From Roseibium algicola (lineage in GTDB: Bacteria > Pseudomonadota > Alphaproteobacteria > Rhizobiales > Stappiaceae), in NCBI RefSeq assembly GCF_001999245.1, contig NZ_CP019630.1, forward strand, positions 4,059,001-4,123,000: a stretch of 64,000 bases of DNA, given 5' to 3'. Each line of letters begins with the position of its first letter. Within the stretch, counting starts at the first letter, position 1. Below the pieces are notes generated by a model. The model saw only the letters and a list, made by a program, of their open reading frames with translations, was not told where the DNA came from and made no database searches. A program made the translations under genes and the position numbers. Shown in pieces: positions 20,809 to 62,620 of this stretch.

Positions 20809-20816
20809 GGACGGAC

Positions 20817-22450: not shown

Positions 22451-23176
22451 ATGCAGCGCGTTTTTGAAACCTTCATAACCCGGATGTCCGGTTGCATCGA
22501 TGACAGCGATTTCCGGGAGACGATGGCCATCGCTGCACGAGAATTCGAAATAGAAAGATTTGCCTATTTTTCTTTACCCGGTGAACCACGCGGCGAACCT
22601 CACATCATCTCAAATTATCCGCAAGATTGGAGAAGCCGATATCGCGAGAAGGCCTATCACCAGGTCGATCCGGTAGTTTGTCATATGAGAAATGCGCACG
22701 AGCCCTTCCTTTGGCCTTCCGGAAGTGTTCGTGCCGCAGATCTCTCGCATGACTCGAAATTCTTCAGGGAGGCCTCCGAGTTCGGAATTGGCCGGGGCAT
22801 GACTATTCCCATTCATGACCGGTACGGACGCTTCGCTGCGGTGACATTTGCTGCGGCGCACGACGACGAGAAATTTGCCAAAATCGCCGCCACTTATAGG
22901 CATGCGCTTCAGCTCATGGTCACGTGCTTTCATATCCAGGTGCGCAAAAGATTTTCCGGCACCGGAATTGTGGACGGTATATCTCTCACAAAACGGGAAC
23001 TGGAATGTCTTCAATGGGCCGCACGAGGAAAATCCACTGGTGACACAGCGATTATCCTGGGCATCAAACGCCGGACAGTCACCTTTCATCTGGACAATGT
23101 CCGCCGCAAATTCGAGGTGAGGACAGTAGCGCAGGCAATTGCGATCCTCGCCGCATCAAGTCCGAAATCGCTTTGA
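22451..23176 (+). CDS. traR: LuxR/TraR-type quorum-sensing regulator
   Basis: A 241-residue regulator with an N-terminal acyl-homoserine-lactone-binding domain and a C-terminal LuxR HTH. The ligand-pocket residues are in place (Trp and Tyr in DWRSRYREKAY, Asp-Pro in QVDPVV, Trp in FLWPSG, Gly in GIGRGMTIP). The HTH reads LTKRELECLQWAARGKSTGDTAIILGIKRRTVTFHLDNVRRKF. It is followed by its cognate synthase and an fseA-type gene, matching the TraR position in ICEMlSym-type control. The symbol is by analogy. Confidence 0.9.
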   Translation: MQRVFETFITRMSGCIDDSDFRETMAIAAREFEIERFAYFSLPGEPRGEPHIISNYPQDWRSRYREKAYHQVDPVVCHMRNAHEPFLWPSGSVRAADLSHDSKFFREASEFGIGRGMTIPIHDRYGRFAAVTFAAAHDDEKFAKIAATYRHALQLMVTCFHIQVRKRFSGTGIVDGISLTKRELECLQWAARGKSTGDTAIILGIKRRTVTFHLDNVRRKFEVRTVAQAIAILAASSPKSL

Positions 23177-23227
23177 TCTTAAACTTCAACCTGTGATGGT
23201 TCTCAGGATGCGCGTGTCTGCAAAACC

Positions 23228-23259
23228 TCTCCAATAGAACGATCAAATCCTATTGGAGA
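23228..23259 (+). promoter_or_regulatory. Hairpin covering the luxI ribosome binding site
   Basis: A perfect 10-bp inverted repeat (TCTCCAATAG at 23228-23237, CTATTGGAGA at 23250-23259) with a 12-nt loop. The right arm contains the GGAGA Shine-Dalgarno of the synthase gene, 5 nt from its ATG at 23265. In mRNA this would hide the ribosome binding site; as DNA it could also be a regulator site. Confidence 0.7.
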
Positions 23260-23264
23260 AAACA

Positions 23265-23903
23265 ATGATACAGCTCATTTCGAAACCCTGGTACCGCGAG
23301 TTCTCCGGTGAAATCCAGGAAATGCATTTGCTTCGCCACCGAGTGTTCAATGAACGGCTCAACTGGGATGTGCCGGCCAAAGGCGGTTTTGAGATAGATA
23401 CCTATGACGCCGACTGTCCCGATTATCTCATTATGAAAGGCGCGACCGGACGCATCGAAGGCTGTGTGCGCTTTCTGCCGACAACAGGTCCGACGATGTT
23501 GCGCGACACGTTTTCCAATCTGCTCGATGGCCGATCAGCTCCCGAACACGACAGTATTCTCGAAAGCAGCCGTTTTGCTCTGGACCTTCCCGCGGCCGCG
23601 CCGAAAGGCCATGGCGGAATTGCGGTCGGCACCTACGAACTCTTCGCCGGCATGGTCGAATTTGCCCTCTCGCGCGGTTCCGACCGTATTGTCACCGTCA
23701 CGGACACACGCATGGAAAGGATCCTGCGGATAGCCGGCTGGCCGCTGGAACGCCTCGGATCTCCGAAACCCATCGGCAACACGATGGCGCTCGCAGGTTT
23801 TGTCGACGTTTCGAAAGAGATTTTGGACAGCCTTCGCGAAAGGGGAGGGGGCTATCAGCCCGTCCTCTGGGCTCCCGTCGTTCACTTGAATCGGGAAGAC
23901 TGA
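23265..23903 (+). CDS. traI: Acyl-homoserine-lactone synthase
   Basis: LuxI-family autoinducer synthase, 212 residues. The invariant N-terminal residues are in LRHRVFNERLNWDVP and EIDTYDADCPDYLI, followed by GCVRFLPTTGPTMLRDTF and ESSRFALD. It makes an AHL from SAM and acyl-ACP; the acyl chain is not predictable. ATG 23265 is used because GGAGA lies 5 nt upstream; the TTG at 23253 is inside that hairpin arm. It is located 88 bp after the regulator gene and 31 bp before the fseA-like gene. Confidence 0.92.
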   Translation: MIQLISKPWYREFSGEIQEMHLLRHRVFNERLNWDVPAKGGFEIDTYDADCPDYLIMKGATGRIEGCVRFLPTTGPTMLRDTFSNLLDGRSAPEHDSILESSRFALDLPAAAPKGHGGIAVGTYELFAGMVEFALSRGSDRIVTVTDTRMERILRIAGWPLERLGSPKPIGNTMALAGFVDVSKEILDSLRERGGGYQPVLWAPVVHLNRED

Positions 23904-23934
23904 CACGGTTTGCCCTCCGCCGAGTCCCGAAACC

Positions 23935-24733
23935 ATGCCCTCAAGTGCATCGAGGCCCGGCTTCCCCAACTGGTATCGCCGGGAGACCTACGCCCCGTGT
24001 TCCTTCCTTCCCCGAAGCGGCTGGGCCTGGGAATTCTTGAGGAGAAACCCAAGCTTTCAGTCAGACTTCGAAAACTTTATTGGCTCGATTGAGAAATCGA
24101 GCCAACACCCAGCCACCTACAGCATGCCCGCCCAATCTCCCCTGACGAAATTGGGCCTCTTTTTTCGCGACTTCTCTGGATCCTGGCGCCGGCGTCATCT
24201 GGGATCCGGACCTCTTCGCGCGTGTTCTTCCCGTAACAGCCGAACGCGCCAGACCGGGAGCAGCACAGCTGGATATCAAAGCTCTGCCATGCAACGTGAC
24301 AATCGTGCAATCCGGTTCAGACGCGCATCATGTCCTTCTTCAACAAGCAGGGCAGAGCCTGCAGATGCTCGTTGAAGCCAGGAACGTTCTTGCCCCACTT
24401 CACCTGAAGACGGAGGCGGTCTGGCCGCCGCATCTGAACAAGAGCCGTCTGGCCTTAATGGAAGCGCTGAACGTTTTTCTTCAAACCGGAGAACTTCCGG
24501 CACGCCTCTTTCCCCCGGATCCTCGCAACCGCCGCCTGACCGTCATCCTTCAGGCCCTCGATGGTGCCCTTGATGGAGCAACGCATCGCGAAATCGCGGT
24601 GGCACTATTCGGAGAGGAAAAGGTTAGCCGGGACTGGACGGATCCCGGCAATCATCTCCGCGATCATGTCCGGCGAGCAATCCGGCGTGGGCGGTACCTC
24701 ATGAAAGAAGGCTATCTAAACTTCCTGCGGTAG
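23935..24733 (+). CDS. fseA: FseA-like excision activator made by +1 frameshift (DUF6499-DUF2285)
   Basis: Two overlapping reading frames encode one protein. Frame 1 (from ATG 23935) carries DUF6499: PNWYRRETYA, then SGWAWEFLRRNPSFQSDF. Frame 2 (to 24733) carries DUF2285: WPPHLNKSRLALMEALN, HREIAVALFGEEKV and DHVRRAIRRGRYLMKEGYLNFLR. The frames join at CTC-TTT-TTT-C (24157-24166): a +1 step of the last Phe codon to TTC gives GLFF-ATSLDPG and a 265-residue fusion. This matches msi172/msi171 of ICEMlSym-R7A, where programmed +1 frameshifting makes FseA, activator of rdfS. Without the shift, frame 1 runs on to 24375 and lacks DUF2285. It follows the AHL synthase by 31 bp. A plain inactivating indel is the alternative reading. 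Confidence 0.85.
24157..24169 (+). other. Programmed +1 frameshift site in fseA
   Basis: Frame-0 codons are CTC TTT TTT CGC. Six T residues (24160-24165) are followed by C24166, so tRNA-Phe can move from UUU to UUC and resume at GCG (24167), in the frame of the DUF2285 half. The mechanism equals that reported for FseA of Mesorhizobium. Confidence 0.8.
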
Positions 24734-24751
24734 CCGGACCTGAGAGAGGGT

Positions 24752-25024
24752 TCAGACGGCTTCCCGGAATAGCTCTTTGTAGCCTGATGCTAAAAGCCAG
24801 TTCGCCCGCTTCAGGTGAGCTTCAACCATCTGCCTGGCATGTGCCGGGTCGGTCGCCGGATCGATGCCGAAAACCGCTTGAGCCATCTCGTCGATGCTTG
24901 CGTGGTCAGAGGCGAATGTGAGGAGCTGCATGTAGGTTGAAAAATGGGCAGCGTCATAGGCGGTGAAATGGTCGGAAGAGGGCGATAGTCGGCTCTGTTC
25001 GGTTGGTGTTCTCGTGCTTTCCAT
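24752..25024 (-). CDS. qseM: QseM-like antiactivator (DUF2285)
   Basis: A 90-residue protein whose C-terminal half (HASIDEMAQAVFGIDPATD, then VEAHLKRANWLLASGYKELFREAV) is a stand-alone DUF2285-type domain resembling the end of the FseA-like protein. In ICEMlSym-R7A, QseM is a small DUF2285 protein that binds TraR and FseA and blocks transfer. The gene ends 19 bp from fseA (convergent) and is divergent from a small XRE regulator with paired operators between, as in that element. Start ATG 25024. Confidence 0.8.
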   Translation of the reverse strand: MESTRTPTEQSRLSPSSDHFTAYDAAHFSTYMQLLTFASDHASIDEMAQAVFGIDPATDPAHARQMVEAHLKRANWLLASGYKELFREAV

Positions 25025-25067
25025 TAGGCAGCAACCTTCCATCAGTCTCAGGTGGTTACCACCAAAA

Positions 25068-25101
25068 TATCCCAAAATGGGATAATCCGAAACTGGGATT
25101 A
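25068..25101. promoter_or_regulatory. Paired operators between qseM and qseC
   Basis: Operator A is TATCCCA-AAA-TGGGATA (25068-25084), a perfect 7-bp dyad. Operator B is TAATCC-N7-GGATTA (25083-25101), a related 6-bp dyad. Their centres are 16 bp apart, on one helix face within about half a turn. They lie in the divergent promoter region of the antiactivator and XRE genes. Confidence 0.75.
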
Positions 25102-25137
25102 TTTGGTGAAACGGTCATTCCCCGGCCGGTTCACTTC

Positions 25138-25377
25138 ATGTCCAAATCCCTGAGATCAGAGCGTCATTTTTTGTTGTTGGAACAATTGGTCCAACTTCGA
25201 AAAGCTAAGGGACTCACACAAGAGCAATTGGCCAACAAGCTTGGCAAACCTCAATCTTTCGTTGCGAAATACGAGGGAGGCGAGCGACGGCTGGATGTGG
25301 TGGAATTTCTGGACGTTGTCGATGCAATCGGTGCGGATCCACTTCACATTCTTGCAGAACTGAAAACAACTCCATAG
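25138..25377 (+). CDS. qseC: QseC-like XRE regulator
   Basis: A 79-residue Cro/CI-type HTH protein (RKAKGLTQEQLANKLGKPQSFVAKYEGGERRLDVVEFLDVVDAIG). It is divergent from qseM with two dyad operators in the 113-bp gap. In ICEMlSym-R7A, QseC binds two such sites and sets a bistable switch on qseM. The start is ATG 25138; upstream in-frame codons overlap the operators and are not used. Confidence 0.85.
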   Translation: MSKSLRSERHFLLLEQLVQLRKAKGLTQEQLANKLGKPQSFVAKYEGGERRLDVVEFLDVVDAIGADPLHILAELKTTP

Positions 25378-27530: not shown

Positions 27531-27639
27531 ATCTTTCAGGTCTTCTACGGCTATTATCGGGTTGCGAGCATTTCTGGCGGAAGAATTCCCCGCGCGGATA
27601 CTGCAGCTGCGAACGAGAACAGACTTCAGGGTCAACCCA

Positions 27640-30089: not shown

Positions 30090-30096
30090 CCAATAA

Positions 30097-39180: not shown

Positions 39181-39398
39181 GCGACGTTTCTATCTTGCGG
39201 AATATGAACGGTGCCGCGCCGCCAACAACACGGATTTCGGCAGCGTAGTTGAGATAAACGTAGTGAATCAAGTCCGGGACAAGCGATCATCTCCCCAGGG
39301 CCGATCACAGCGTTGAGTTAGTTTTAGAGAGACTACAGATCTTGCACTGCGTTCCTCTCCAAGAGTTCGACCGCTATTAAACCAAACTGGTGGAGTTC

Positions 39399-44641: not shown

Positions 44642-44675
44642 TTGGGGGAAAAGCGGCGGGATAGAGGGTAAGGAA

Positions 44676-48203: not shown

Positions 48204-48231
48204 GGCGAAAACCGGCTTGAAGGTTTTCGCC
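48204..48231 (+). promoter_or_regulatory. Hairpin upstream of rdfS
   Basis: GGCGAAAACC (48204-48213) and GGTTTTCGCC (48222-48231), perfect 10-bp arms, 8-nt loop, 114 bp before the rdfS ATG. Candidate site for the FseA-type activator or a leader hairpin. Confidence 0.55.
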
Positions 48232-48344: not shown

Positions 48345-48557
48345 ATGACCGACACACAATTGGAAGACGACGGCCCGTTCCTCACAACGAAGGAAGCAGC
48401 CCGGTTTTTAAAGCTGAGACCCAACACGCTGGAGAAAATGCGTGTCAATGGCGGCGGTCCCATCTACCGCAAACACGGCCGTCACGTGCGCTATCACATC
48501 GACGATCTCAACGACTGGTCGAACCTCAGAAAGAAGGATTCGACCGCCGATGTCTGA
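48345..48557 (+). CDS. rdfS: RdfS-like excisionase (recombination directionality factor)
   Basis: A 70-residue winged-helix protein of the AlpA/excisionase type (FLTTKEAARFLKLRPNTLEKMRVNGGGPIYRKHGRHVRYHIDDLNDW). In ICEMlSym-R7A, RdfS directs the integrase toward excision and heads an operon with traF and the relaxase gene, under FseA control. The same gene order is seen here. ATG 48345 follows TTGGAG. Its stop overlaps the DUF2840 gene by 8 bp. Confidence 0.85.
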   Translation: MTDTQLEDDGPFLTTKEAARFLKLRPNTLEKMRVNGGGPIYRKHGRHVRYHIDDLNDWSNLRKKDSTADV

Positions 48558-49032
48558 TCGACTTTTTACGACAGTTGAGCTCGTGTTCTATCCCGAGTTC
48601 CGCAACGACCGCTTGCGTTTCGGCAGGCCCGTCGGGCGCGTGGATTTGGATCGAAGACGCGCGCTCGCCGTCTTCGATCCCGGCGAGATGTTCGGCTATG
48701 TCCGCTGGTACGCCAACGAATATGGAACGCAGTCCTGGAGCTTTCTGGTCGCGCAGACCCTTGGTCAGTTGGACCGGCAAGGTGTCGCGCTTACCCGTGT
48801 TGATGGCATCAAACCAGGAGCCGGGATCCTGCTTCATTTGGACGGTGCGGCGCGTGTAAGGCAACTCTTCAAGCTGCTGGACGCGCTCGAAGCGCGCGGT
48901 TTCGAGGCGGAAGATATCTCTCCTTCCTATTACCGGCATCTTCACAACCGTATTCTCACGCGCAGCGAAATCCGGCCCTATTCAAACACCCAGCACAGAG
49001 CCGTTCAAACGGCAAGGCTGGTGCTGGAATGA
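48550..49032 (+). CDS. DUF2840 family protein
   Basis: A 160-residue protein of the DUF2840 family (TTVELVFYPEFRNDRLRFGRP; FGYVRWYANEYGTQSWSFLVAQTL; GAGILLHLDGAARVRQLFKLLDAL). It is found between excisionase and traF genes in this ICE class. Overlaps with rdfS (8 bp) and traF (4 bp) show tight coupling. The function is not known; a role in transfer is likely from position. Confidence 0.88.
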   Translation: MSDRLFTTVELVFYPEFRNDRLRFGRPVGRVDLDRRRALAVFDPGEMFGYVRWYANEYGTQSWSFLVAQTLGQLDRQGVALTRVDGIKPGAGILLHLDGAARVRQLFKLLDALEARGFEAEDISPSYYRHLHNRILTRSEIRPYSNTQHRAVQTARLVLE

Positions 49033-49532
49033 GAACCCGGACCCTCATTGCGACCGTTGTTTCTGTGCTTGCCCTGGCCGCTTCCGGCGCGCATTGGCTG
49101 CCGCTCAAGCTTGTCTATAACGGTTCTGCAAGCGCTCCGGCCGGTTATTATTGGGTCGATCAATTACCCGCGAAACCCGGCGACCACGTGCTGATCGAGC
49201 CGCCGGACGCAATTCGAAAGCTTATTGAAGATCGGCTCTATCTTCCGCGTGGTGTCCCCTTGATCAAGGAAATTGCCGCGTCCAATGGCGACACCGTTTG
49301 CCGTCTTGATCGCGATGTTCTGATCAACGGAATGACCGTCGCACATGCCCGGGCGACGGACAAAAAGGGGCGGCCATTGCCGAATTGGAAGGGGTGCCAC
49401 TTGCTCGCAGAGAACCAGATTTTCCTGCTGCAACAGCATCCGGATTCTTTCGACAGCCGGTATTTCGGGATCGTCGAAAGGTCCCGGATACTCGGCAGGG
49501 CGACGCGGCTCAGTGTCTTGAGCCGGAAATGA
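49029..49532 (+). CDS. traF: TraF-type S26 signal peptidase
   Basis: A 167-residue conjugative peptidase related to LepB and TraF of RP4. It has an N-terminal membrane helix (LIATVVSVLALAASGAHWLPL), nucleophile Ser in NGSASAPAGYYWV, general-base Lys in PRGVPLIKEIAAS, and the C-terminal QHPDSFDSRYFGIVERSRILGRA. TraF matures and cyclises the TrbC pilin. The start overlaps the DUF2840 stop (ATGA). Confidence 0.92.
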   Translation: MRTRTLIATVVSVLALAASGAHWLPLKLVYNGSASAPAGYYWVDQLPAKPGDHVLIEPPDAIRKLIEDRLYLPRGVPLIKEIAASNGDTVCRLDRDVLINGMTVAHARATDKKGRPLPNWKGCHLLAENQIFLLQQHPDSFDSRYFGIVERSRILGRATRLSVLSRK

Positions 49533-49782: not shown

Positions 49783-51783
49783 ATGAGCAGAGACAAGGAC
49801 GATGTCTTCAGGCCGAAACCGGGCCGAATTCGGAGCCTGGGCGGCACGAAGTCGAAGAGCTATCTCAACCGGGTGCTCCACCAGATGTCCGCCGAGCGAG
49901 CGAGCGGTGCAAGCCCCAAGCTGTCCACGAGGTTCACCGGCCGCCGGATCGGACGCGGCAACGATTGGCTGAACCGGCACCGCGCAGGTCACCGGTTCGC
50001 TCCCGCCACCAGGCGTGTCGTCATTAAATCCCGCATCGTCAAATTGGCGGGAAGGAGCGGGAGAGGCGGGCTTGGCGCGGCGCGGGCCCACCTCCGCTAC
50101 CTGCAGAGGGATGGTGTTTCCAGGGAGCAAGAACCCGGCCGGCTCTACGATGCGAACAGCAATGAGGCGGACGGCCGCGCCTTCCTGAAACGCAGCGAGG
50201 ACGACCGGCACCAGTTCCGTTTCATCGTGTCACCGGAAGACGCTGTCGAGCTTGAGGATCTGAAACCCTTCGTCCGCGATCTGATGCGCTCGATGGAACA
50301 GGATCTCGGCACCAAACTCGATTGGGTGGCCGTCGATCATTTCAATACCGCCCAGCCCCATTCCCATATCCTTCTGCGCGGCCGGGACGATCAGGGCAAG
50401 GATCTCATAATCGCCAGGGATTATATCGGCCATGGCATGCGCCGGCGGGCGAGCGAACTTCTGACTTTGGAACTTGGACCACAAACAGAGCAGGAATTTC
50501 GCCAAAAGCTTGCGCGGCAGGTCGGACAGGACCGGTTCACGGATCTCGACCGGCGCCTGCTCCGCCAGGCAGGAAACGGGCTGCTCGATGTTGGAGCCAG
50601 CAAAGCGTCTGCGAACGAACGGTCCTGGCAAACACTCAAGGCAGGACGTCTTCGTGTCCTGGAACAGCGAGGACTTGCAAATGAGGTCGCGCCAGGCCAG
50701 TGGCAGCTTTCGGCCAAACTGGAAGCGACCCTGCGGCGTGCAGGCGAGCGCGGCGACATTATCAAGACCATGCACCGCGGTTTGAAAGCAGCAGGACTGG
50801 ATGCGGGTGCTTCCGACTATGCAATTTTCGATCCCGGCGATCCGCGCAGCCGAACCGTAACAGGCCAGGTCATTGACCGGGGACTGCACGATGAGCTGAA
50901 TGAAGGGCATTACATCCTGGTCGATGGCGCCGACGGCCGCGTCCATCATGTCGCTCTCGATCCGCGCCAGGATATGGAGGATCTGCCTCTTGGTGCCGTC
51001 GTCGCAGTCGAGCCGGTGGGGCAGGGCATCAAAGAAGCGGATCGTATTATCGCCGACCTGGCGAGGCAGAATGGCGGGATCTATGCGCCGGAGGTGTCCC
51101 GGAGCAATCCCGGAGAGGTCTCGGAGGAGGTCGTCAAAACACATATCCGCCGGCTCGAAGCCCTCCGGCGCCAGGGTATCGTCCAGCGCAACGCCGATGG
51201 TTCCTGGAAAATTCCGGACGATTTCGAGGAACGGATCACCGGCCTTGCAATGAATGAGACGCGCTTTCCTGCGCGTGCAACCGCACTTTCCTATCTTTCG
51301 CTCGAAGCTCAAGTCGGCGCGGACGGGGCCACCTGGCTCGACCGGCAACTGCTCGACGCAAAGCCTCTCCAGCTTCGAGGCGGGCGGTTTGGAAGCCGTG
51401 CAAACTCGGCAATTCAACGTCGGCAAGAGCATCTGATCGAGCAGGGGCTGGCCGAGCGGAAGGCAGGGAGGATCCGCTTCAGGCGCAATCTGTTGCAATT
51501 CCTGCGGCAAAGGGAGCTGAGTGCGGTTGGAGCCAAGCTCTCGAATGAAACCGGACTTACCTTTGTTGAAACACCTGATGGGGAACGCGCGGAAGGCGTC
51601 TACAAGCGGTCTGTCAAGCTTGCCAGCGGCAGGTTTGCAATCCTGGAAAAGTCAAAGGAGTTCAATCTTGTGCCCTGGCGGCCGGTCCTCGAACGCCAGC
51701 GTGGCAAATTGGTCTCCGGACGTCTTCGTGGGGCAAGCATGTCCTTCGATTTCTCGCGCAAACGCGGGATGGGCATCGGGTAA
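49783..51783 (+). CDS. rlxS: Relaxase with DUF3363 domain (RlxS-like)
   Basis: A 666-residue MOBP-type relaxase. The N-terminal domain contains ARAHLRYLQRDGV with the candidate nicking Tyr, and the metal motif VDHFNTAQPHSHILLRG (His-rich motif III). The C-terminal half is DUF3363. It nicks oriT and pilots the strand to the recipient through the TraG/Trb apparatus. It is the last gene of the rdfS-DUF2840-traF-rlxS series, after a 250-bp gap containing the oriT candidate, and is convergent with hipA. Confidence 0.9.
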   Translation: MSRDKDDVFRPKPGRIRSLGGTKSKSYLNRVLHQMSAERASGASPKLSTRFTGRRIGRGNDWLNRHRAGHRFAPATRRVVIKSRIVKLAGRSGRGGLGAARAHLRYLQRDGVSREQEPGRLYDANSNEADGRAFLKRSEDDRHQFRFIVSPEDAVELEDLKPFVRDLMRSMEQDLGTKLDWVAVDHFNTAQPHSHILLRGRDDQGKDLIIARDYIGHGMRRRASELLTLELGPQTEQEFRQKLARQVGQDRFTDLDRRLLRQAGNGLLDVGASKASANERSWQTLKAGRLRVLEQRGLANEVAPGQWQLSAKLEATLRRAGERGDIIKTMHRGLKAAGLDAGASDYAIFDPGDPRSRTVTGQVIDRGLHDELNEGHYILVDGADGRVHHVALDPRQDMEDLPLGAVVAVEPVGQGIKEADRIIADLARQNGGIYAPEVSRSNPGEVSEEVVKTHIRRLEALRRQGIVQRNADGSWKIPDDFEERITGLAMNETRFPARATALSYLSLEAQVGADGATWLDRQLLDAKPLQLRGGRFGSRANSAIQRRQEHLIEQGLAERKAGRIRFRRNLLQFLRQRELSAVGAKLSNETGLTFVETPDGERAEGVYKRSVKLASGRFAILEKSKEFNLVPWRPVLERQRGKLVSGRLRGASMSFDFSRKRGMGIG

Positions 51784-53903: not shown

Positions 53904-55931
53904 ATGACACCCACCAAACTCCTTATAGGTCAGATTGCGATCGTTTTTTCGATCGTCATTGGTGCCGTTTGGGCGGGAACGCAATGGGCAGCATATTCGC
54001 TGGATAACCAGCCGCGGCTCGGGCCGTTCTGGTTCGAAATTGCCGGATATGAGGTTTACCTGCCCTGGCGCCTGTTCGAGTGGTGGTATGCTTTCGATAG
54101 CTATGCTCCGGACGTTTTCAACACGGCAGGGACCATAGCAGCTTCCGGCGGTCTGGCAGGGGTTGCGGTTGCGATTGCCGGATCGCTTTGGCGGGCGCGT
54201 CAGAACCAATTGGTGACCACCTACGGCTCTGCGCGCTGGGCAACCAGAGCCGAGATCGCAAAGTCCGGGCTCACCCACGACAAAGGTGTATTTCTCGGAC
54301 GGTTAAACGACCGGTATCTGCGCCATGACGGGCCAGAACACGTCATGTGCTTTGCACCGACACGGTCGGGCAAAGGCGTCGGCCTCGTCATTCCGACCTT
54401 GTTGAGCTGGCCGCATTCTGCGGTCATCCACGACATCAAGGGTGAAAACTGGCAACTGACCGCAGGCTGGCGCTCGCATTTCTCCCATTGCCTGTTCTTC
54501 AACCCGACCGATCCGGCAAGCGCCAAGTACAATCCTCTTCTGGAGGTCCGCAAAGGTCCCTTCGAAGTCCGCGATGTCCAGAACATTGCAGACATTCTTG
54601 TCGATCCGGAAGGCGCGCTCGAGCGGCGCAACCATTGGGAAAAAACCAGTCACTCCCTGCTCGTCGGCGTGATCCTGCATGTCCTTTATGCCGAAAAGGA
54701 AAAGACACTCTCCCGGGTTGCTACTTTCCTCTCCGATCCCAAGCATTCCTTTGAGCATTCGCTGCGCGTCATGATGCGCACAAATCATCTGGGCTCAGGC
54801 AACGATCCAAAGGTTCACCCTGTCGTTGCCCAGGCGGCGCGTGAGCTCCTGAACAAATCCGAGAACGAACGTTCCGGCGTTCTCTCAACGGCCATGTCCT
54901 TCCTTGGCCTTTACCGGGATCCGACAGTCGCGGAAACAACGAGCGCATGCGAGTGGCGGATCGCCGATCTGAAGGATGCGAAAAATCCGGTCTCGCTTTA
55001 TCTGGTCATTCCGCCGTCAGATATCTCCCGGACCAAACCGCTCGTCCGATTGATCCTCAATCAGATCGGGCGCCGCCTGACAGAACGCCTGGAGGGCGAC
55101 AAGAAGAAGTCCCGGCAGCACCAGCTTCTGATGATGCTGGATGAATTCCCCGCGCTCGGACGGCTCGATTTCTTCGAAAACGCACTCGCATTCATGGCCG
55201 GCTATGGCGTGCGCAGCTTTCTGATCGCCCAGTCCCTCAACCAGATAACCAAGGCCTATGGCGAGAACAATTCCATCCTCGACAATTGCCATCTTCGCAT
55301 CGCGTTCGCGGCCAATGACGAACGCACGGCAAAGAGGATCTCCGACTCGCTCGGGACCGCGACGGAACTCCGGGCACAACGGAACTACGCCGGTCACAGG
55401 CTCGCGCCCTGGCTCGCGCACGTCATGGTCTCCCGCCAGGAAACGGCACGTGCGCTCATGACACCGGGAGAAATCATGCAACTGCCGGCGGACGAGGAGG
55501 TCGTCATGATCTCCGGTCACCCGCCGGTCAGGGCCAAAAAGCTCCGTTACTTCGATGACAAAAACCTTTCGGGCCGGGTCCTCCCCCCGCCTGGCCTGAA
55601 GGCGGGCGGTCCGTTTGAGGATCGCCCGCCGACCCGACCTGACGATTGGACCGGCCTCACGCGAACGCCTCGTGCTGACCTTGAAAAAATCCAGCAGCAA
55701 ACGGCGATCAGCTCCGACGAAGACGAAGGCGGTCTCCAGCGCCACCCGGCTTTGCCGGAGGAAGTGCCGACGCCGACCGAACCTGAAATTGCGCCTGATG
55801 CCGGTCTCCTCGACGACGACTTCGACGCCGCCAACGCAAACCGCCTCACGCAACTGAACCGAACCACTGCTGCCGTCCGCCGCGCGCATGCGATGGACCA
55901 CTCAGACGACGACCTGCTGCCCGGATTTTAG
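53904..55931 (+). CDS. traG: TraG/VirD4 type IV coupling protein
   Basis: A 675-residue inner-membrane ATPase that links the relaxosome to the secretion channel. It has two N-terminal membrane helices (IAIVFSIVIGAVWAG; GLAGVAVAIAGSLW), Walker A in FAPTRSGKGVGLVIP, IHDIKGENW, Walker B in LLMMLDEFPALGRLDF, and a C-terminal acidic tail. It is the first gene of the traG-RHH-trb operon, 10 bp before the RHH gene. Confidence 0.95.
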   Translation: MTPTKLLIGQIAIVFSIVIGAVWAGTQWAAYSLDNQPRLGPFWFEIAGYEVYLPWRLFEWWYAFDSYAPDVFNTAGTIAASGGLAGVAVAIAGSLWRARQNQLVTTYGSARWATRAEIAKSGLTHDKGVFLGRLNDRYLRHDGPEHVMCFAPTRSGKGVGLVIPTLLSWPHSAVIHDIKGENWQLTAGWRSHFSHCLFFNPTDPASAKYNPLLEVRKGPFEVRDVQNIADILVDPEGALERRNHWEKTSHSLLVGVILHVLYAEKEKTLSRVATFLSDPKHSFEHSLRVMMRTNHLGSGNDPKVHPVVAQAARELLNKSENERSGVLSTAMSFLGLYRDPTVAETTSACEWRIADLKDAKNPVSLYLVIPPSDISRTKPLVRLILNQIGRRLTERLEGDKKKSRQHQLLMMLDEFPALGRLDFFENALAFMAGYGVRSFLIAQSLNQITKAYGENNSILDNCHLRIAFAANDERTAKRISDSLGTATELRAQRNYAGHRLAPWLAHVMVSRQETARALMTPGEIMQLPADEEVVMISGHPPVRAKKLRYFDDKNLSGRVLPPPGLKAGGPFEDRPPTRPDDWTGLTRTPRADLEKIQQQTAISSDEDEGGLQRHPALPEEVPTPTEPEIAPDAGLLDDDFDAANANRLTQLNRTTAAVRRAHAMDHSDDDLLPGF

Positions 55932-55941
55932 AGGAATTTCG

Positions 55942-56451
55942 ATGAAGCCCCGTTTGAATGTCCATATTTCGCACGAACTCTCCGAGCGGGTGGAAATTGC
56001 CACCAAACGTCCCGGAGTGACCAAAGCCGCCGTCGTCGAAGCTGCTCTCCTAGGGTTTTTCTCCAGGGAATTTGACGACCAGCGTGACGGCGCCTTGGTC
56101 CGAAGGCTCGATCGGATAAGCCGTCAATACGACCGTCTTGAGCGGAACCTCTCCATCGCGACCGAAACGCTCGCTCTCTACATCCGCTTTTTCCTGACGG
56201 TCACGCCGCCCTTGCCGAACGCGGATCAGGATGCGGCCCGGGCGCTCGGCAAGGAGCGGTTTGAATATTTTACGACGCAGCTCGCCAGGCGGCTTGCTGG
56301 TGGCAAGAACATGATCCGCGACGTGCTGGATGAAATCAGTGCCGGCGAGAGCGAGTTCTTCACCGAGGCCGAAATCGAAGCTCTGCGCTCGGTACGCAAG
56401 GACCAGTCAAATTCCCGCGAAGGTGAAAACCTGGAGACGAGCGATGAATGA
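55942..56451 (+). CDS. Ribbon-helix-helix protein between traG and trbB
   Basis: A 169-residue protein with an N-terminal CopG-type RHH domain (LNVHISHELSERVEIATKRPGVTKAAVVEAALLGFF) and a helical C-terminal part with a hydrophobic stretch (ETLALYIRFFLTVTPPLP). It is the usual companion of traG and trbB in this operon type and may be a relaxosome accessory or autoregulator. ATG 55942 follows GAGGAA. It overlaps trbB by 8 bp. Confidence 0.85.
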   Translation: MKPRLNVHISHELSERVEIATKRPGVTKAAVVEAALLGFFSREFDDQRDGALVRRLDRISRQYDRLERNLSIATETLALYIRFFLTVTPPLPNADQDAARALGKERFEYFTTQLARRLAGGKNMIRDVLDEISAGESEFFTEAEIEALRSVRKDQSNSREGENLETSDE

Positions 56452-57424
56452 CCGTCTCCTGTCTACGACCCGCAACCGCCGCCGGTCAATGCTGGCAACG
56501 GCCATGGGCCCGCAGATCGCCGATGCCCTCGCCGACAATTTGACAACCGAGGTGATGGTCAACCCCGATGGAAGGCTGTGGCTTGACCGGCATGGCGAAG
56601 GCCGGGTTGCCACCGGTCAAAGGATCGGTGCGGACGAAGCAGAACGAATCATCCGGCTGGTCGCAAGCCATATCGGACAGGAGTGCCATTCCGGTGCTCC
56701 CATAGTCTCCGCCGAATTGCCGGAAACAGGCGAACGTTTCGAAGGCTTGCTTCCCCCTGTCGCACCGGCACCCTGCTTCTCGATCCGAAAACCGGCGAAC
56801 GTCCTCTACTCGTTGAGTGATTATGTCGGTGCGCAGATCCTGACGCCTCTTCAGGCGACTGCCATTCGCGAGGCCATTGAATCTCATCAGAACATTGTCG
56901 TCGTAGGCGGAACCGGCTCGGGCAAGACAACACTGGTAAATGCCATGTTGGCTGAGGTCGCTCTGGGCGGCGACCGGGTGATCATCATCGAGGACACGCG
57001 CGAACTTCAATGCGCGGCTGAAGATTGCGTGAACCTTCGAACCAAGTCTGGCACCGCCTCCCTTGCCGACCTCGTGCGCTCGACCATGCGCCTGCGTCCG
57101 GACCGGATCGTTGTCGGCGAAGTCAGGGGACCGGAAGCTCTCGACATGCTCAAGGCCTGGAACACCGGACATCCGGGCGGAATTACGACGCTGCACGCCA
57201 ACTCAGGCCATGCCGCGCTCTACCGGCTTGAGCAGCTCATTCAGGAAGCTGTCATCACCGTGCCGCGGCGCCTCATCGCCGAAGCAATCGACATCGTCGT
57301 CTTTCTGAAGGGGAGGGGACCGGGACGGCGTGTTGAAACCGTCTCGTCTCTCAAGGGCCTCGATGCCAACGGCGACTATCGCCTTGAAACTCTGACACCC
57401 GTGCCATTCGCCTCGACAACCTGA
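56444..57424 (+). CDS. trbB: TrbB conjugal transfer ATPase
   Basis: A 326-residue VirB11-family hexameric ATPase. Walker A is VVGGTGSGKTTLVN, followed by an Asp box (IIIEDTRELQC), Walker B/His box (RIVVGEVRGPEALDMLKAWNTGHPGGITTLHANS). It powers assembly of the mating channel and pilus. The start overlaps the RHH gene stop. Confidence 0.96.
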   Translation: MNDRLLSTTRNRRRSMLATAMGPQIADALADNLTTEVMVNPDGRLWLDRHGEGRVATGQRIGADEAERIIRLVASHIGQECHSGAPIVSAELPETGERFEGLLPPVAPAPCFSIRKPANVLYSLSDYVGAQILTPLQATAIREAIESHQNIVVVGGTGSGKTTLVNAMLAEVALGGDRVIIIEDTRELQCAAEDCVNLRTKSGTASLADLVRSTMRLRPDRIVVGEVRGPEALDMLKAWNTGHPGGITTLHANSGHAALYRLEQLIQEAVITVPRRLIAEAIDIVVFLKGRGPGRRVETVSSLKGLDANGDYRLETLTPVPFASTT

Positions 57425-57439
57425 AAAAGGGAGCCACAT

Positions 57440-57769
57440 ATGACCCGATCTGATTTTGTGTTTCGCCGACTTGCGGACGTTGCCTCTGCATCCACCATTG
57501 TCCTCATCCTCACCGCCAGGGCTCATGCGGCTGGTTCCGGCATGCCCTGGGAAGCGCCTCTCACCCAGATCCTGGAATCCATCGAAGGTCCGGTTGCCCG
57601 TATTGTCGCGGTGATGATCATCGTCATTACAGGACTGTCGCTCGCCTTCGGGGAAGCCTCGGGCGGGTTCCGGCGCCTGATCCAGATCGTCTTCGGCCTT
57701 TCCATCGCCTTTGCCGCCACATCGTTTTTCCTTTCATTCTTTTCCTTTGCGGGCGGAGCGCTTGTCTGA
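57440..57769 (+). CDS. trbC: TrbC pilin
   Basis: A 109-residue VirB2-like pre-pilin: signal region (VASASTIVLILTARAHAAG) and two hydrophobic helices (IVAVMIIVITGLSLAFG; IVFGLSIAFAATSFFLSFFSFAGG). It would be processed and cyclised by TraF. It overlaps trbD by 1 bp (TGATG). Confidence 0.92.
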   Translation: MTRSDFVFRRLADVASASTIVLILTARAHAAGSGMPWEAPLTQILESIEGPVARIVAVMIIVITGLSLAFGEASGGFRRLIQIVFGLSIAFAATSFFLSFFSFAGGALV

Positions 57770-58026
57770 TGGCCGTTCAAGGATTTGAGATCCCGCTCCA
57801 CCGCGCGTTGACCGAGCCCATCCTGATGGGCGGTGCGCCGCGCACTGTTGCGATCGCCAACGGCACGCTCGCTGCCGCTCTTGGGCTGGGCCTTCAGCTT
57901 TGGAGTGCGGGTGCCGCTGTTTGGCTGATCGGGCATGCGATCGCCGTCTTTGCCGCACGCAAGGATCCCGCCTTCATGGATGTCCTTGCCCGCCATATCC
58001 GACACAAGGGCTTTCTTTCATGTTGA
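57769..58026 (+). CDS. trbD: TrbD, VirB3-like
   Basis: An 85-residue inner-membrane protein of the VirB3 family (FEIPLHRALTEPILMGGAPRTVAIANGTLAAALGLGLQLWSAGAAVWLIG; FAARKDPAFMDVLARHIRHK). It overlaps trbC by 1 bp and trbE by 7 bp. Confidence 0.93.
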   Translation: MAVQGFEIPLHRALTEPILMGGAPRTVAIANGTLAAALGLGLQLWSAGAAVWLIGHAIAVFAARKDPAFMDVLARHIRHKGFLSC

Positions 58027-60467
58027 ACCTTGCAGAATACCGCAAACGGCCGACGGGCCTTGCCGACTATTTGCCTTGGGGCTGCCTCGTTGCTCCGGGT
58101 GTCGTTCTGAACAAGGATGGTTCCCTGCAGCGCTCAGCCCGGTTTCGCGGATCTGATCTTGAAAGTGCAACCGAAGCTGAGCTGGTCGCGGCGTGTGCCC
58201 GGATCAACAACTTGCTTCGAAGGTTCGGGTCCGGCTGGGCATTGTTCTTTGAAGCGGACCGGCATGATGCCGGACAGTATCCGCGCTCGGACTTTCCTGA
58301 CCCGCTGTCGGCCCTGGTCGACGAAGAGCGCAGGGCTCTCTTTGAAGCCTCCGACACTCTTTTTGAAAACAGCTATGTGCTGACGTTCACCTGGTTGCCG
58401 CCTTCAGAAAGTGTGAGCCGGGCTGAGCGGTATCTGGTCGAAAATTCCGGAAATCGGCACAATGAAAGTTTTCGCGACCAGTTGAAGACCTTCATCGACC
58501 GAACGGATCGTGCAATCGATCTGCTCGAACAAGTCATGCCGGAAGCCGAGCCGCTCTCAGACAGCGAGACCCTGACCTACCTGCACAATTGTATCTCCTC
58601 CTATCGCCAATCGATCTCGGTGCCGGAGATCCCCGCCTATCTCGACGCTGCGCTTGTCGATACGCCTCTTGTCGGCGGCCTTTCGCCGAAGCTTGGGGAG
58701 TTGCATCTCAGACTTCTTACGGTGCTGGGATTTCCGGGCGCCACCACCCCCGGCATTCTCGACGATCTCAATCATCTTGGCTTTTCCTATCGCTGGATGA
58801 CGCGGTTTTTGCCGCTCGACAAGGCCGCGGCTGAAAAGATGATCCGGCGTTACCGCCGGCAATGGTTCGCCAAACGAAAGTCCATAGGGGCGATCGTCAA
58901 AGAGGTCATGACCAACGAACAGTCGGTGCTGATTGACGCCGATGCGGAAAACAAGGCGGCGGATGCCGATGAGGCTCTGCAAGAGCTTGGTGCGGATCTT
59001 GTTTCCTACGGTTATGTCACGACGACACTCGTCATCTCCGATGAACATGACCACCGGGCCGATCAGAAGCTCCGATTGGCCAAGCGCGTTACTGACGGGC
59101 GAGGTTTTGCGACAATTGAAGAAAGCCTCAATGCGGTGGAGGCCTGGCTTTCGTCTCTTCCCGGACACGTCTATGCGAACGTCCGGGCAGCGCCCGTCAA
59201 CACTTTGAACCTTGCTCACATGATGCCGCTCTCGGCCAGCTGGGCCGGGCCGGAGCGCAACGAGCATCTGGATGGTCCGCCGCTCCTGACCGTTCGCACC
59301 AATGGCACGACGCCGTTTCGCCTGAGCACTCATGTCGGCGATGTCGGCCACACCATCATCGTCGGACCGACCGGCGCAGGCAAATCGGTGTTGCTGTCTC
59401 TGATCGCCCTGCAGTTCCGCCGATACCCAAAGAGCCAGATCACGATCTTCGACAAGGGCGGCTCGGCACGGGCGACCGTCCTTGGAATGGGAGGCGCTTA
59501 TTTTGACCTTGGTGCGGCGAGGGAGGGGCTGAAGGGCGCGCTCGCATTCCAACCGCTGGTGAACATCGATCTGATCATGGAGCGAACCTTCGCGCAGGAA
59601 TGGATCCTGGGATTACTGACCCAGGAGAAAGTGGAAGTTTCGCCCGACATCAAGGACGCGGTCTGGTCGGCGCTATCGAGCCTTGCCTCGGCACCGCAGC
59701 CGGAACGCACATTAACCGGTCTTACCACTTTGCTCCAACGCAACGATTTGCGTCAGGCACTGCTCCCTTACACTCTGGAAGGTCCTTATGGCCGCTTGCT
59801 CGATGCCGATCACGACCGGCTGACACTCGGGGCCGTCCAGTGTTTCGAGATGGAAGAGCTGATGCACAGCGAAGGCGCCGTTTTGCCTGTGCTCACCTAC
59901 CTCTTTCACAGGTTGGAGCAAAAATTCGACGGAACGCCAGCCCTCCTGATCCTCGATGAAGCCTGGCTGTTTCTGGATCATCCAGCATTTGCTGCGCGTA
60001 TCCGTGAATGGTTGAAGACGCTCAGAAAACGAAACGTCTCAGTGATTTTCGCGACGCAGGCTCTCTCGGATGTTGCCAGTTCCTCGATTGCGCCTGCGAT
60101 CATTGAGAGCTGTCCGAGCCGTATTTTCCTGCCCAATGATCGGGCAATAGAGCCTCAAGCCAAAGAGATCTACGAGGCCTTCGGACTGAACGGCCGTCAG
60201 ATCGAAATCATCGCCAGGGCAATGCCGAAACGCGACTACTACTACCAGTCGCGACACGGCAACCGGCTCTTCGAACTCAACCCAGGTCCTGTCGCGCTGG
60301 CCTTCATCGCTGCTTCGAGCAGGGAAGATCACGCTCTCATGGATGAGCTCATCGCCGCGCATGGCGAAGAGGAATTCGCAGATTCGTGGCTGCGAGCGCA
60401 CGGGCTCGAATGGGCTGCAGAACTCACCGGAAACGTCCCCCAATCAGAAGCCGAAGGAGAACTCTGA
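58020..60467 (+). CDS. trbE: TrbE, VirB4-family ATPase
   Basis: An 815-residue ATPase of the type IV secretion system. CagE/TrbE N-terminal domain, then Walker A (VGPTGAGKSVLL) near residue 450 and Walker B (LLILDEAWLFLDHP) with ATQALSDVASSSIAP and CPSRIFLPNDRA. It energises pilus biogenesis and substrate transfer. The start at ATG 58020 overlaps trbD. Full length. Confidence 0.96.
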   Translation: MLNLAEYRKRPTGLADYLPWGCLVAPGVVLNKDGSLQRSARFRGSDLESATEAELVAACARINNLLRRFGSGWALFFEADRHDAGQYPRSDFPDPLSALVDEERRALFEASDTLFENSYVLTFTWLPPSESVSRAERYLVENSGNRHNESFRDQLKTFIDRTDRAIDLLEQVMPEAEPLSDSETLTYLHNCISSYRQSISVPEIPAYLDAALVDTPLVGGLSPKLGELHLRLLTVLGFPGATTPGILDDLNHLGFSYRWMTRFLPLDKAAAEKMIRRYRRQWFAKRKSIGAIVKEVMTNEQSVLIDADAENKAADADEALQELGADLVSYGYVTTTLVISDEHDHRADQKLRLAKRVTDGRGFATIEESLNAVEAWLSSLPGHVYANVRAAPVNTLNLAHMMPLSASWAGPERNEHLDGPPLLTVRTNGTTPFRLSTHVGDVGHTIIVGPTGAGKSVLLSLIALQFRRYPKSQITIFDKGGSARATVLGMGGAYFDLGAAREGLKGALAFQPLVNIDLIMERTFAQEWILGLLTQEKVEVSPDIKDAVWSALSSLASAPQPERTLTGLTTLLQRNDLRQALLPYTLEGPYGRLLDADHDRLTLGAVQCFEMEELMHSEGAVLPVLTYLFHRLEQKFDGTPALLILDEAWLFLDHPAFAARIREWLKTLRKRNVSVIFATQALSDVASSSIAPAIIESCPSRIFLPNDRAIEPQAKEIYEAFGLNGRQIEIIARAMPKRDYYYQSRHGNRLFELNPGPVALAFIAASSREDHALMDELIAAHGEEEFADSWLRAHGLEWAAELTGNVPQSEAEGEL

Positions 60468-61177
60468 TGTCACGTAGTTTTTTCATAGGTGCTCTTGCCG
60501 CGACAATCGCACTCCTGCCCGGGCAAAGCGCTGCCTGGCGGGTGGTCTACGATCCATGGAACCATGCGGAAAATGTGCTGTCGGCAGCCCGTGCGCTGGA
60601 GGAGATCAACAATCAGGTCCAGCAACTCTCCAATGAAGCGCAGATGCTGATCAATCAGACCAGGAATTTGGCCAATCTTCCGGTTTCGATTGCCGGCGAA
60701 CTCCAGGGATCTCTCAATCAGGTTGACCGTCTGATCCAGGACGCGCAGGGGATCGCCTATGAGATTTCCGAAATCGACAGCACCTACCGGCAGTTCTTCC
60801 CGGAAGAGTATGCAAGCGGCGTTCCGACGACCAGGATCCTGCAGGATGCCCGACAGACCTGGAACCTGGCGCGCGATGGCTTCCGTCATGCACTTGAAGT
60901 TCAGGCGAGCGTTGTCGGCGAAATCAGAACCGACGCAGCCGCGCTCGACCGGTTGATCGGTGAAAGCCAGGGCGCCGTCGGCAATCTTCAGGCCGTTCAG
61001 GCCGGCAATCAATTGACGGCACTTGCCGCCAAACAGTCCATGCAACTCCAGAGCCTCCTGGCCGCATCCGCGCGCGCCGATGCATTGTCACAGGCCGATG
61101 TGCTGGCTGCCCATGAGCGCGGCCAGGCCCGGTTCGAACATTTTGTGGGAAGCGGATCCGCTTACTCGCCGCACTGA
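60467..61177 (+). CDS. trbJ: TrbJ, VirB5-like
   Basis: A 236-residue periplasmic protein with a signal peptide (MSRSFFIGALAATIALLPGQSAAW), then DPWNHAENVLSAARALEEINNQVQQLSNEAQMLINQTRNL, the TrbJ hallmark, and long helices. It serves as a minor pilus component. It overlaps trbE by 1 bp. Confidence 0.93.
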   Translation: MSRSFFIGALAATIALLPGQSAAWRVVYDPWNHAENVLSAARALEEINNQVQQLSNEAQMLINQTRNLANLPVSIAGELQGSLNQVDRLIQDAQGIAYEISEIDSTYRQFFPEEYASGVPTTRILQDARQTWNLARDGFRHALEVQASVVGEIRTDAAALDRLIGESQGAVGNLQAVQAGNQLTALAAKQSMQLQSLLAASARADALSQADVLAAHERGQARFEHFVGSGSAYSPH

Positions 61178-61189
61178 CCTAAAGCCAAA

Positions 61190-61291
61190 TTGAAGAAGCT
61201 CATCATCCGAGCGGCGGTGACCGGACTGCCGCTCGGAACGGGAAACCATGTCTTGCAGCTCGAGCGAAAGAACACGCAATGGATGACCTGA
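61190..61291 (+). CDS. Possible degenerate trbK position ORF
   Basis: A TTG-initiated 33-codon ORF (MKKLIIRAAVTGLPLG at its start) fills the gap where trbK (entry exclusion) stands in many trb operons. It overlaps the trbL start. Too short and lacking a lipobox, so it may be a remnant or chance. Confidence 0.25.
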   Translation: MKKLIIRAAVTGLPLGTGNHVLQLERKNTQWMT

Positions 61292-62610
61292 ACGTGATCG
61301 ACCGATTTACCGAAACTTTCGTTCGTTACATCGATTCCGGCTTTGGGCTTCTTGCACCCGATATTGCCTTTCTGACGACGATCCTGATCGGGATAGACGT
61401 CACGCTTGCAGGACTGTTCTGGGCGCTTTCCGAAGACCGGTCCCTGCTGCCGTCGTTGGTCCGCAAAGTCCTTTATGTCGGCGCATTCGCCTTTATTCTG
61501 AACAATTTCTCCGACTTGTCTTCCATTGTCTTTAAGAGTTTTGCAGGGCTCGGGTTGCAGGCGACCGGGTCTCCGATCAGCGCCGATGATTTGATGAGGC
61601 CGGGTTTCGTTGCCACGGCCGGGTATGATGCGGCGCTGCCGCTGCTGGACGAGGTTTCGACACTCATCGGCCCGATCGCGTTCTTCGAGAATTTCGTGAC
61701 CATCGTCGTCCTTCTGCTTGCCTGGATCGTTGTGCTGATCGCCTTTTTCATCCTGGCAATCCAGCTCTTCATCACGATCCTGGAATTCAAGCTGACGACA
61801 CTCGCAGGCTTTGTGCTTGTTCCCTTTGCGCTCTGGAACAAGTCAGCTTTTCTTGCCGAACGGGTGCTCGGAAATGTGATTGCCGCCGGCATCAAGCTCA
61901 TGGTGCTCGCCATTATTGTCGGTATTGGTTCGACGCTCTTCGGTGAGTTCGCGTCGTCCTTTTCCGGTGGCGACATCACGTTGGCGCAAGCCGCCTCGAC
62001 AGTTCTCGGTGCTCTGTCGATCTTCATGCTCGGGATTTTTGGAACCGGTATTGCTGCCGGGCTAGTATCCGGCGCGCCGCAACTCGGCGCCGGCACTGTC
62101 GCTGGTTCCGCTGCAGGGCTGTTACTTGGCGGAGCAGCTGCGGGCGGTGTTGCGCTCGGAGCAGGCGGCGCTGTTGCTTCGGGTGGTGTCGGCGCGACGC
62201 GCGCAGCCGCGGCGATGGCCGGCGGCGCAACAGCTTCGTTTCAGATGAGCAAGACTGCTTCAGGGGAAACCGGTGCAGCCGGGATTGCCGCAGGGGTCGC
62301 GGGTGTCGTGCGTGCGGGAGCAGGGACGATTGGCCTTGGCGCCCGGAAACTGGCGACGAGTGCGACGAGCGGAATACGTGACTCGTATGAAAATGGAGAA
62401 CGCGCCGCTTCTTCTACCTCCGGTACCGCGGAAGCCAATGCCACGCGGAATAGCCCAGGCGAACCCGCAAAATCCGGAGCACCTGACTGGGCACATCGGC
62501 TCCGCCGCGAACAAAGGCTGAGAGAAGGTGTGACCATCGCCGCCCATACCCTGCGCGACGGTGACCGGCCCGTCTCCGGCGACACTCCTAAACTTGATCC
62601 CAATGACTAA
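61279..62610 (+). CDS. trbL: TrbL, VirB6-like channel protein
   Basis: A 443-residue polytopic inner-membrane protein with at least five helices in residues 30-260 (for example ILIGIDVTLAGLFWAL; VVLLLAWIVVLIAFFILAIQLFITI; LMVLAIIVGIGSTLF). A Gly/Ala-rich stretch (270-360) and a hydrophilic tail follow, typical for TrbL. The start is at ATG 61279. Confidence 0.93.
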   Translation: MDDLNVIDRFTETFVRYIDSGFGLLAPDIAFLTTILIGIDVTLAGLFWALSEDRSLLPSLVRKVLYVGAFAFILNNFSDLSSIVFKSFAGLGLQATGSPISADDLMRPGFVATAGYDAALPLLDEVSTLIGPIAFFENFVTIVVLLLAWIVVLIAFFILAIQLFITILEFKLTTLAGFVLVPFALWNKSAFLAERVLGNVIAAGIKLMVLAIIVGIGSTLFGEFASSFSGGDITLAQAASTVLGALSIFMLGIFGTGIAAGLVSGAPQLGAGTVAGSAAGLLLGGAAAGGVALGAGGAVASGGVGATRAAAAMAGGATASFQMSKTASGETGAAGIAAGVAGVVRAGAGTIGLGARKLATSATSGIRDSYENGERAASSTSGTAEANATRNSPGEPAKSGAPDWAHRLRREQRLREGVTIAAHTLRDGDRPVSGDTPKLDPND

Positions 62611-62620
62611 GAGGCGAGCG

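Follow-up and report, generated by a model that had tools for sequence, protein, structure and literature searches.

The 64,000-nucleotide stretch analyzed here (the window; C1:4059001-4123000 of the three-contig, 6.65-Mb genome G000 from a Labrenzia-group alphaproteobacterium of the Stappiaceae, a marine relative of the rhizobia) very probably carries the transfer-control locus of an integrative and conjugative element (ICE) of ~108 kb, which is of the ICEMlSym-R7A conjugation type, is inserted in a tRNA-Met gene, and would operate much as its counterpart in ICEMlSym-R7A (hereafter R7A) does. In R7A, a five-gene cell-density switch decides when the symbiosis island moves between cells (PMC5882170; PMC10359603). 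The genes, their order, the boxes, operators, reading frames, and conservation described below come from sequence, while we infer every binding and regulatory step from R7A.

The five-gene control module

The module occupies positions 22451-25377, where the initial annotation had placed a LuxR gene, a LuxI gene, a split DUF6499/DUF2285 gene, a stand-alone DUF2285 gene, and a small divergent helix-turn-helix (HTH) gene. All five are at these coordinates and have their domains by Pfam, including matches to the three families for which that annotation had proposed profile searches, DUF6499 (PF20109), DUF2285 (PF10074), and the acyl-homoserine lactone (AHL) synthase (PF00765). The first gene, traR (22451..23176, + strand), encodes a predicted LuxR-type, AHL-responsive activator of 241 amino acids (PF03472, E 7.7e-34; PF00196, E 6.7e-15), for which the nearest solved structures are TraR and LasR chains. 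It is followed by traI (23265..23903, +), which encodes a predicted AHL synthase of 212 amino acids (PF00765, E 9.3e-50) that aligns with LasI and is the single traI match in its own genome (E <= 0.001). As far as the alignments reach, the usual pocket and catalytic positions of TraR and TraI are in place.

The next gene, fseA, is indeed split into two overlapping frames, +1 apart, with a domain in each. Its first frame (23935..24375, +) contains DUF6499 (PF20109, E 5.2e-10) and the AWEFLRRN motif, and its second frame (24146..24733, +), open from a stop at 24143, contains the DUF2285/RovC DNA-binding domain (PF10074, E 3.5e-22). When read with a +1 shift, the two frames give one 265-amino-acid protein, and this fusion matches the RovC structure 6xz5 (E 1.6e-9); RovC is the solved relative of FseA named in PMC10359603. 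The features by which FseA is recognized, namely the AWEFLRRN motif, a UUU-C slip site, and the two domains encoded in frames offset by one base, are therefore all present. Convergent with fseA is qseM (24752..25024, - strand; searched as 24755-25021), which encodes a predicted stand-alone DUF2285 antiactivator (PF10074, E 2.9e-6, 28.3 bits against a cut-off of 26.4) with a net charge of -5 and a match to the R7A QseM structure 7uqt (E 4.4e-23). The module is completed by a qseC-like HTH gene (25138..25377, +; PF01381, E 1.2e-9), divergent from qseM. The order traR, traI, two-frame fseA, convergent qseM, and divergent HTH gene, which the annotation had ascribed to R7A, is as published for that element (PMC5882170, S6 Fig legend).

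The same five genes, identical in order and strand, occur in Labrenzia sp. DG1229 (Stappiaceae, Hyphomicrobiales; contig NZ_KI928942.1, L043; taken to be contig C27 of G031, a genome of the window's genus with an identical sequence over the module), the sole named locus retrieved with TraI from the genome collection. Aligned pieces share 72-77% DNA identity, and the DNA flanking the module on either side does not align. In all nine frames compared with DG1229 (traR, traI, both fseA parts, qseM, qseC, rdfS, traF, and rlxS), the nonsynonymous rate (dN) is far below the synonymous rate (dS; NG86 method), with dS above 0.8 throughout, which makes the ratios rough. The layout of traR, traI, fseA, and qseM is also alike in G057, a genome from another genus of the family, where the divergent HTH gene is of another type. 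A further comparison is provided by L165, the quorum-sensing locus of plasmid MesoLj131c2 from the Lotus symbiont Mesorhizobium sp. 131-3-5, which we label R7A-type on the strength of its QseM, identical to 7uqt over the aligned part except at one residue. Given that gene content, order, and strands are alike in DG1229 and, with another HTH type, in G057 and L165, it is extremely improbable that unrelated LuxR/LuxI and HTH genes came to lie beside fseA as chance neighbors, and nothing was found in favor of such a coincidence.

The quorum-sensing layout is a minority form among the 57 fseA loci sampled, which comprise 28 matches in 87 genomes of the family and 29 of the best matches from 297 genomes of the order (this order set holds many further fseA matches beyond those 29, and one duplicate sequence is kept in the count). 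Three loci (own, DG1229, and G057) combine traR and traI with a convergent qseM; another three contain traR, in one case together with traI, but no QseM match, and one has only a convergent QseM-like gene. A QseM-like gene lies upstream on the same strand in 31, with rdfS within 1.5 kb in 29 of these. The remainder have rdfS only (three), none of these genes (two), or are unclassed, lacking a second-frame match with the window protein (14).

Within fseA, the +1 frameshift region (TTG GGC CTC TTT TTT CGC; 24151..24168, +) keeps UUU-C and has lost the upstream TGGGG. The residues WGL, encoded by a ribosome-binding-site-like UGGGGG beside the +1 site, are described as highly conserved, not as obligatory (PMC10359603). 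The window codes KLGL (TTGGGC) in place of WGL and lacks the conserved UGGGGG, whereas L165 has TGG GGG and DG1229 TGG GGT at this site. Across 46 readable fseA sites (the 57 loci less 10 that fail the motif search and one duplicate), TGGGG is found in 44, TTT in 45, and TTT followed by C in 43. The two sites without TGGGG are that of the window, which retains TTT-C, and that of L067, in which TTT is gone too.

These observations bear on whether the locus is decaying or nearly silent, with a weakened frameshift signal in an element that no longer transfers in this way. Such decay would account for the lost TGGGG, at one of only two of the 46 readable sites, and for the weak DUF6499 match (40.6 bits, ranking 24th among the 28 found in the family), yet four of those 28 score still lower, all frames are intact, the operators and tra box are kept, and the tested conjugation genes read through. 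Furthermore, dN/dS against DG1229 is well below 1 in nine of nine frames, a value that averages over the whole divergence and in which a recent loss would not show. We therefore regard decay as unlikely. FseA output may nonetheless be low, given the missing TGGGG and a DUF6499 half that, at 46% to DG1229, shows the lowest conservation among the nine frames.

Operators and predicted binding sites

Two putative operators overlap in the interval between qseM and the HTH gene (25068-25102; no strand assigned). Both are inverted repeats: the first, TATCCCAAAATGGGATA (25068..25084), is unchanged in DG1229, and the second, ATAATCCGAAACTGGGATTAT (25082..25102), has one base changed there. This pair, termed type 2 here, is matched with up to three mismatches in 0 of 100 shuffles. 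The initial annotation had described paired operators known from R7A; the pair does exist, but its type differs from that of the R7A-type qseC operators. In L165, the HTH gene adjoining qseM has a different operator, TAGGAACGATCGTTCCTAGAACGAT, and its product (QseC1) is 26% identical to the window HTH protein over 54 residues. A second, downstream L165 HTH protein (QseC2) is 62% identical to that of the window over 76 residues, and its gene is preceded by near-identical operators, with one base changed in the first and the outermost base changed in the second. QseC1 and QseC2 are names coined in this analysis; judged by its place beside qseM, QseC1 is presumably the studied R7A QseC. The predicted repressor of the window and its putative operators thus belong to a second lineage, distinct from the R7A type. 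What does not hold in the earlier interpretation is this pairing, in that the operators and HTH protein are not an R7A-type pair, and bistability is therefore not carried over to this repressor; the gene identities and order, the tra box position, the FseA-box-like site, and the rdfS set stand.

A scan of 397 genomes of the order, in which reversed-pattern controls gave 0 matches, located the type-2 operator pair (<=3 mismatches) at five places in four genomes, with QseC2 adjoining at each: the window, G289 and G383 (near-identical loci from one genus), and two places in G249 (at one of these the QseC2 match is partial). A qseM gene is beside the operators at three of the five, and at neither G249 place. 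The type-1 operator (<=2 mismatches) is found in six genomes, one copy in each, always beside QseC1 and qseM, with traI and fseA also present in three of the six. Altogether, operator type and its own repressor are paired at 11 of 11 places, window included. At the G249 places (G249:C7:14939 and G249:C24:281026; L168 and L170), QseC2 and its operators occur twice in one genome with no qseM match within 1.5 kb, and they may form a switch that stands by itself and acts on another target. Several qseC variants, as well as two qseM-qseC pairs in Cicer ICEs, have already been reported (PMC8627217), and the repressor swap thus adds a better-resolved example to this known variation. G289 and G383 each have two qseM genes, with HTH partners that are unlike.

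Upstream of traI is a predicted tra/lux box, ACCTGTGATGGTTCTCAGGA (23189..23208, +), centered 66.5 bp before the ATG; the corresponding distance is 67 bp for the R7A traI2 operon (PMC5882170) and, computed from positions, 67.5 bp in L165. The pattern CCTG-N10-CAGG alone is found three times in the window against 1.11 expected, and lux half-sites by themselves are not significant.

Upstream of rdfS is a predicted FseA-box-like inverted repeat, GGCGAA-N16-TTCGCC (48204..48231, +), which has the build of the published FseA box, i.e., two inverted hexamers 16 bp apart (PMC10359603). There is one exact match in the window, against a shuffle mean of 0.01 (1 of 100 shuffles reaches one). The 108-kb element likewise has one perfect match, against 0.1 expected; allowing up to one mismatch gives four, against 2.55, which is no real excess. 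DG1229 keeps both hexamers and the spacer length. Among 42 rdfS upstream regions, a perfect repeat with CG centers is present in seven (shuffle mean 1.2, maximum 4), and at least five of six pairs match in 20 (shuffle mean 11.4, maximum 17). The seven perfect repeats are those of this element and DG1229, that of L146 (identical hexamers), those of L137 and L048 (TGCGAA/TTCGCA), and those of L056 and L145 (unlike sequence). Nothing convincing was found at the position published for the FseA box, 62-67 bp before the rdfS ATG.

The same genome has a second element (G000:C1:2166851-2173644; L040) with a QseM-like gene, a two-frame fseA, rdfS, traF, and an rlxS relative, and with no quorum sensing. 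The hexamers upstream of its rdfS (TGCGAT...TTCGCA; L058) are unlike those of the window, which makes it reasonable to ask whether cross-talk occurs between the two circuits.

Taken with the published behavior of R7A, these features suggest the following mechanism. TraI would make an AHL, and accumulation of this signal would activate TraR. The TraR-AHL complex would then bind the box 66.5 bp before traI and drive traI-fseA as a single transcript, placing signal amplification and FseA production on one message. A rare +1 slip at UUU-C would join the DUF6499 and DUF2285 frames into FseA, which would bind GGCGAA-N16-TTCGCC and turn on rdfS-traF-rlxS, leading to transfer. In most cells QseM would keep both TraR and FseA inactive, and QseC2, acting at the two overlapping operators, would decide whether qseM is on.

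The element, its transfer genes, and its recombinase

The ends of the element are placed at C1:4027267 and 4135284 (window -31733 to 76284, position 0 counted), giving a length of 108,018 bp that includes both copies of a 14-bp repeat, one of which is the tRNA-Met 3' end. This was the sole repeat found when the right flank was compared with the left (BLAST and word search), and taken alone it is near chance level. It is accepted as marking the ends because it lies exactly at the tRNA 3' end and because the close relative G002 has its junction at the same 14 bases, where the tRNA is joined to the element's left flank (117 bases, 81% with gaps, E 2e-22). An ungapped comparison of this flank with G002 gives 24%, no better than inner-end controls, owing to small gaps. 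The left flank is present in 1 of the 29 tRNA/mnmA loci of the genus that were fetched (L090-L118). Farther left, G002 and the window genome diverge, and the left-flank stretch could therefore itself be part of another element at the tRNA-Met site. In several genomes of the genus, the contig bearing the intact tRNA-Met gene also carries additional copies of its 3' end, 45-55 bp long and ~1 to 70 kb away, which suggests that tRNA-Met is a busy integration site.

The rdfS-traF-rlxS set that the initial annotation had proposed as the target of the circuit, at 48.3-51.8 kb, was located at 48345-51783, with a DUF2840 gene between rdfS and traF. The first gene, rdfS (48345..48557, +; ATG at 48345), encodes a homologue of winged-helix recombination directionality factors that matches the R7A RdfS structure 8dgl (E 6.9e-20). 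The DUF2840 gene (48442..49032, +; PF11000, E 1.2e-41) probably starts later than annotated, as 48442 is inside rdfS. The predicted traF peptidase (49029..49532, +; PF10502) scores 90 bits with TIGR02771 against a cut-off of 100, and the rlxS relaxase (49783..51783, +; PF11843) scores 773 bits with NF041267 against 850. Of the transfer genes tested farther along, traG and trbB, E, J, L, and F (53904..63319, +) each score above the curated cut-off, and a trbI match located beyond the window is below its cut-off. The genes that define the ICEMlSym-R7A conjugation type (rdfS, traF, rlxS, traG, and a trb cluster) are thus present.

At the right end of the element is a large serine recombinase frame of 566 codons (window 74614-76314; L038:10614-12314), the likely integrase, with Resolvase, Recombinase, and zinc-ribbon domains; its best NCBIfam models are Ccr recombinases, far under their cut-offs. 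The frame extends across the attachment core and, in antisense, into the tRNA-Met gene, ending ...MVAEEGLEPPTRGL; the host therefore encodes its last residues while the element is integrated, and these would be different in the circular form. Close relatives (at least 81% identity) are found in 5 of the 87 family genomes, including the window genome; the copy in G034 has a stop codon, and that in G042 is partial. Those in G031, G034, and G042 are also at the tRNA-Met/mnmA site, and in G057 the relative lies directly beside the quorum-sensing module. At that locus (G057:C9:329644-333174; L077) the relaxase is 27 kb off and of a more distant type (44%), a pattern that would fit movement of the control module from one conjugation backbone to another. 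The tyrosine integrase that is the usual expectation was sought with PF00589 at E 0.001, with no match inside the element.

With a serine recombinase at the end and no tyrosine integrase found, it would be unsafe to suppose that RdfS drives excision here in the way it does in R7A. The circuit may instead control conjugation only, with excision carried out by the serine integrase and a separate directionality factor, a reading that we find plausible though short of probable. It would agree with the position of the recombinase, with the presence of related recombinases at this site in three other genomes, and with the absence of a PF00589 match inside the element. Winged-helix directionality factors are described as associated with tyrosine recombinases (PMC11963761). 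Other elements give it some precedent, in that rdfS is kept on plasmids (PMC8627217) and is needed in R7A for mobilization of an oriT (origin of transfer) plasmid, where excision is not required, and a direct role of RdfS in conjugation has been argued (PMC11963761). However, none of the other eight frames is as well conserved as RdfS (94% to DG1229 over 62 residues), a level that fits any essential role including excision, and one Mesorhizobium ICE with a serine recombinase has been reported among those of this conjugation type (PMC8627217). It is safer to regard RdfS as a predicted activator of transfer than to treat its role in excision as proven. More tentatively, the circuit might drive a serine-integrase ICE in which RdfS now serves as directionality factor or expression switch for that integrase, or as a pure conjugation activator; the QseM repressor-operator unit would be an exchangeable cassette, and with the frameshift stimulator lost, control would have shifted from translation to the QseM switch. 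We consider this fuller scenario doubtful.

Several points weigh against an R7A-like transfer-control locus in this element. Two of the features discussed above, the lost TGGGG next to the frameshift and the poor conservation of the DUF6499 half, concern FseA directly. The FseA-box-like site ends 114 bp before the rdfS ATG, whereas the published logo has the near hexamer at 62-67; the repeat was spotted by eye farther upstream, and its exact sequence is post hoc. RlxS, TraF, and TrbI score below their curated cut-offs, and functional data on QseC2 were not found in the available texts of the literature on this circuit.

Other genes in the window lie near the control module or elsewhere on the ICE. 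At 19643-22295 are genes for a two-subunit thiamine-pyrophosphate decarboxylase (PF02775; sulfopyruvate decarboxylase-like, under cut-off) and then an aldehyde dehydrogenase (PF00171), which are likely cargo. A second serine-type recombinase (549 codons) and two RepB/ParB-like genes occupy 27562-31005, ~2 kb from the module. Large genes at 36454-42708 with weak Cap4-nuclease/AAA (under cut-off) and SIR2-like matches are possibly a defense cluster, and an ArdA antirestriction gene is present at 44352-45224.

Comparison with known systems

The locus resembles traR-traI2-msi172-msi171/qseM-qseC of R7A in gene order, strands, and a +1-frameshift fseA (PMC5882170; PMC10359603), and also in tra box distance, QseM and RdfS homology, and the build of the FseA box. 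It differs in that the single traI match in the genome lies in the fseA operon, whereas the working synthase of R7A, TraI1, is encoded elsewhere (PMC5882170). Its HTH protein and operators are of the second lineage, TGGGG is lost, and a serine recombinase lies at the element end. In addition, the DUF2840 gene between rdfS and traF is of a kind that ICESyms reportedly lack and other ICEs carry (PMC8627217).

L165 has the same gene order as the window and a downstream QseC2 gene with operators near those of the window; unlike the window, its qseM faces QseC1, and it keeps TGG GGG. Its traR is in two frames (L165:3182-3882), which suggests that the gene is broken in Mesorhizobium sp. 131-3-5. DG1229 shares the whole module, the operators (one base changed), the FseA-box hexamers, rdfS, the relaxase (73%), and the serine recombinase (96%) at the same tRNA-Met/mnmA site; unlike the window, it keeps TGG GGT at the frameshift, and the DNA beside its module does not align. 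The common arrangement without quorum sensing (e.g., that of G000 at 2.17 Mb) shares a +1-frameshift fseA, a QseM-like gene, and rdfS, but there the QseM-like gene is upstream on the fseA strand, rdfS is adjacent, and there is no traR or traI match within the compared loci.

The initial annotation held that a compact module next to non-symbiotic cargo widens the range of this circuit. That claim has little force: control of the FseA/QseM type has already been described across proteobacteria, as has the presence of fseA on ICEs that lack symbiosis genes (PMC10359603; PMC8627217). Literature searches found no publication describing this element by title or abstract. The locus is a genuine control locus of the R7A type in which one part has been exchanged, on an ICE that shares the conjugation genes; the instance is new and the kind is known. 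As TraR, TraI, FseA, QseM, and RdfS stay while the repressor/operator pair, the frameshift neighbor, and the integrase type differ, the element may serve as a natural test of interchangeable parts of the R7A circuit. With the synthase in the fseA operon and no second traI match found in the genome, it would also be a simpler version of that circuit, and a system for asking what RdfS does in an element whose integrase is probably not of the tyrosine type.

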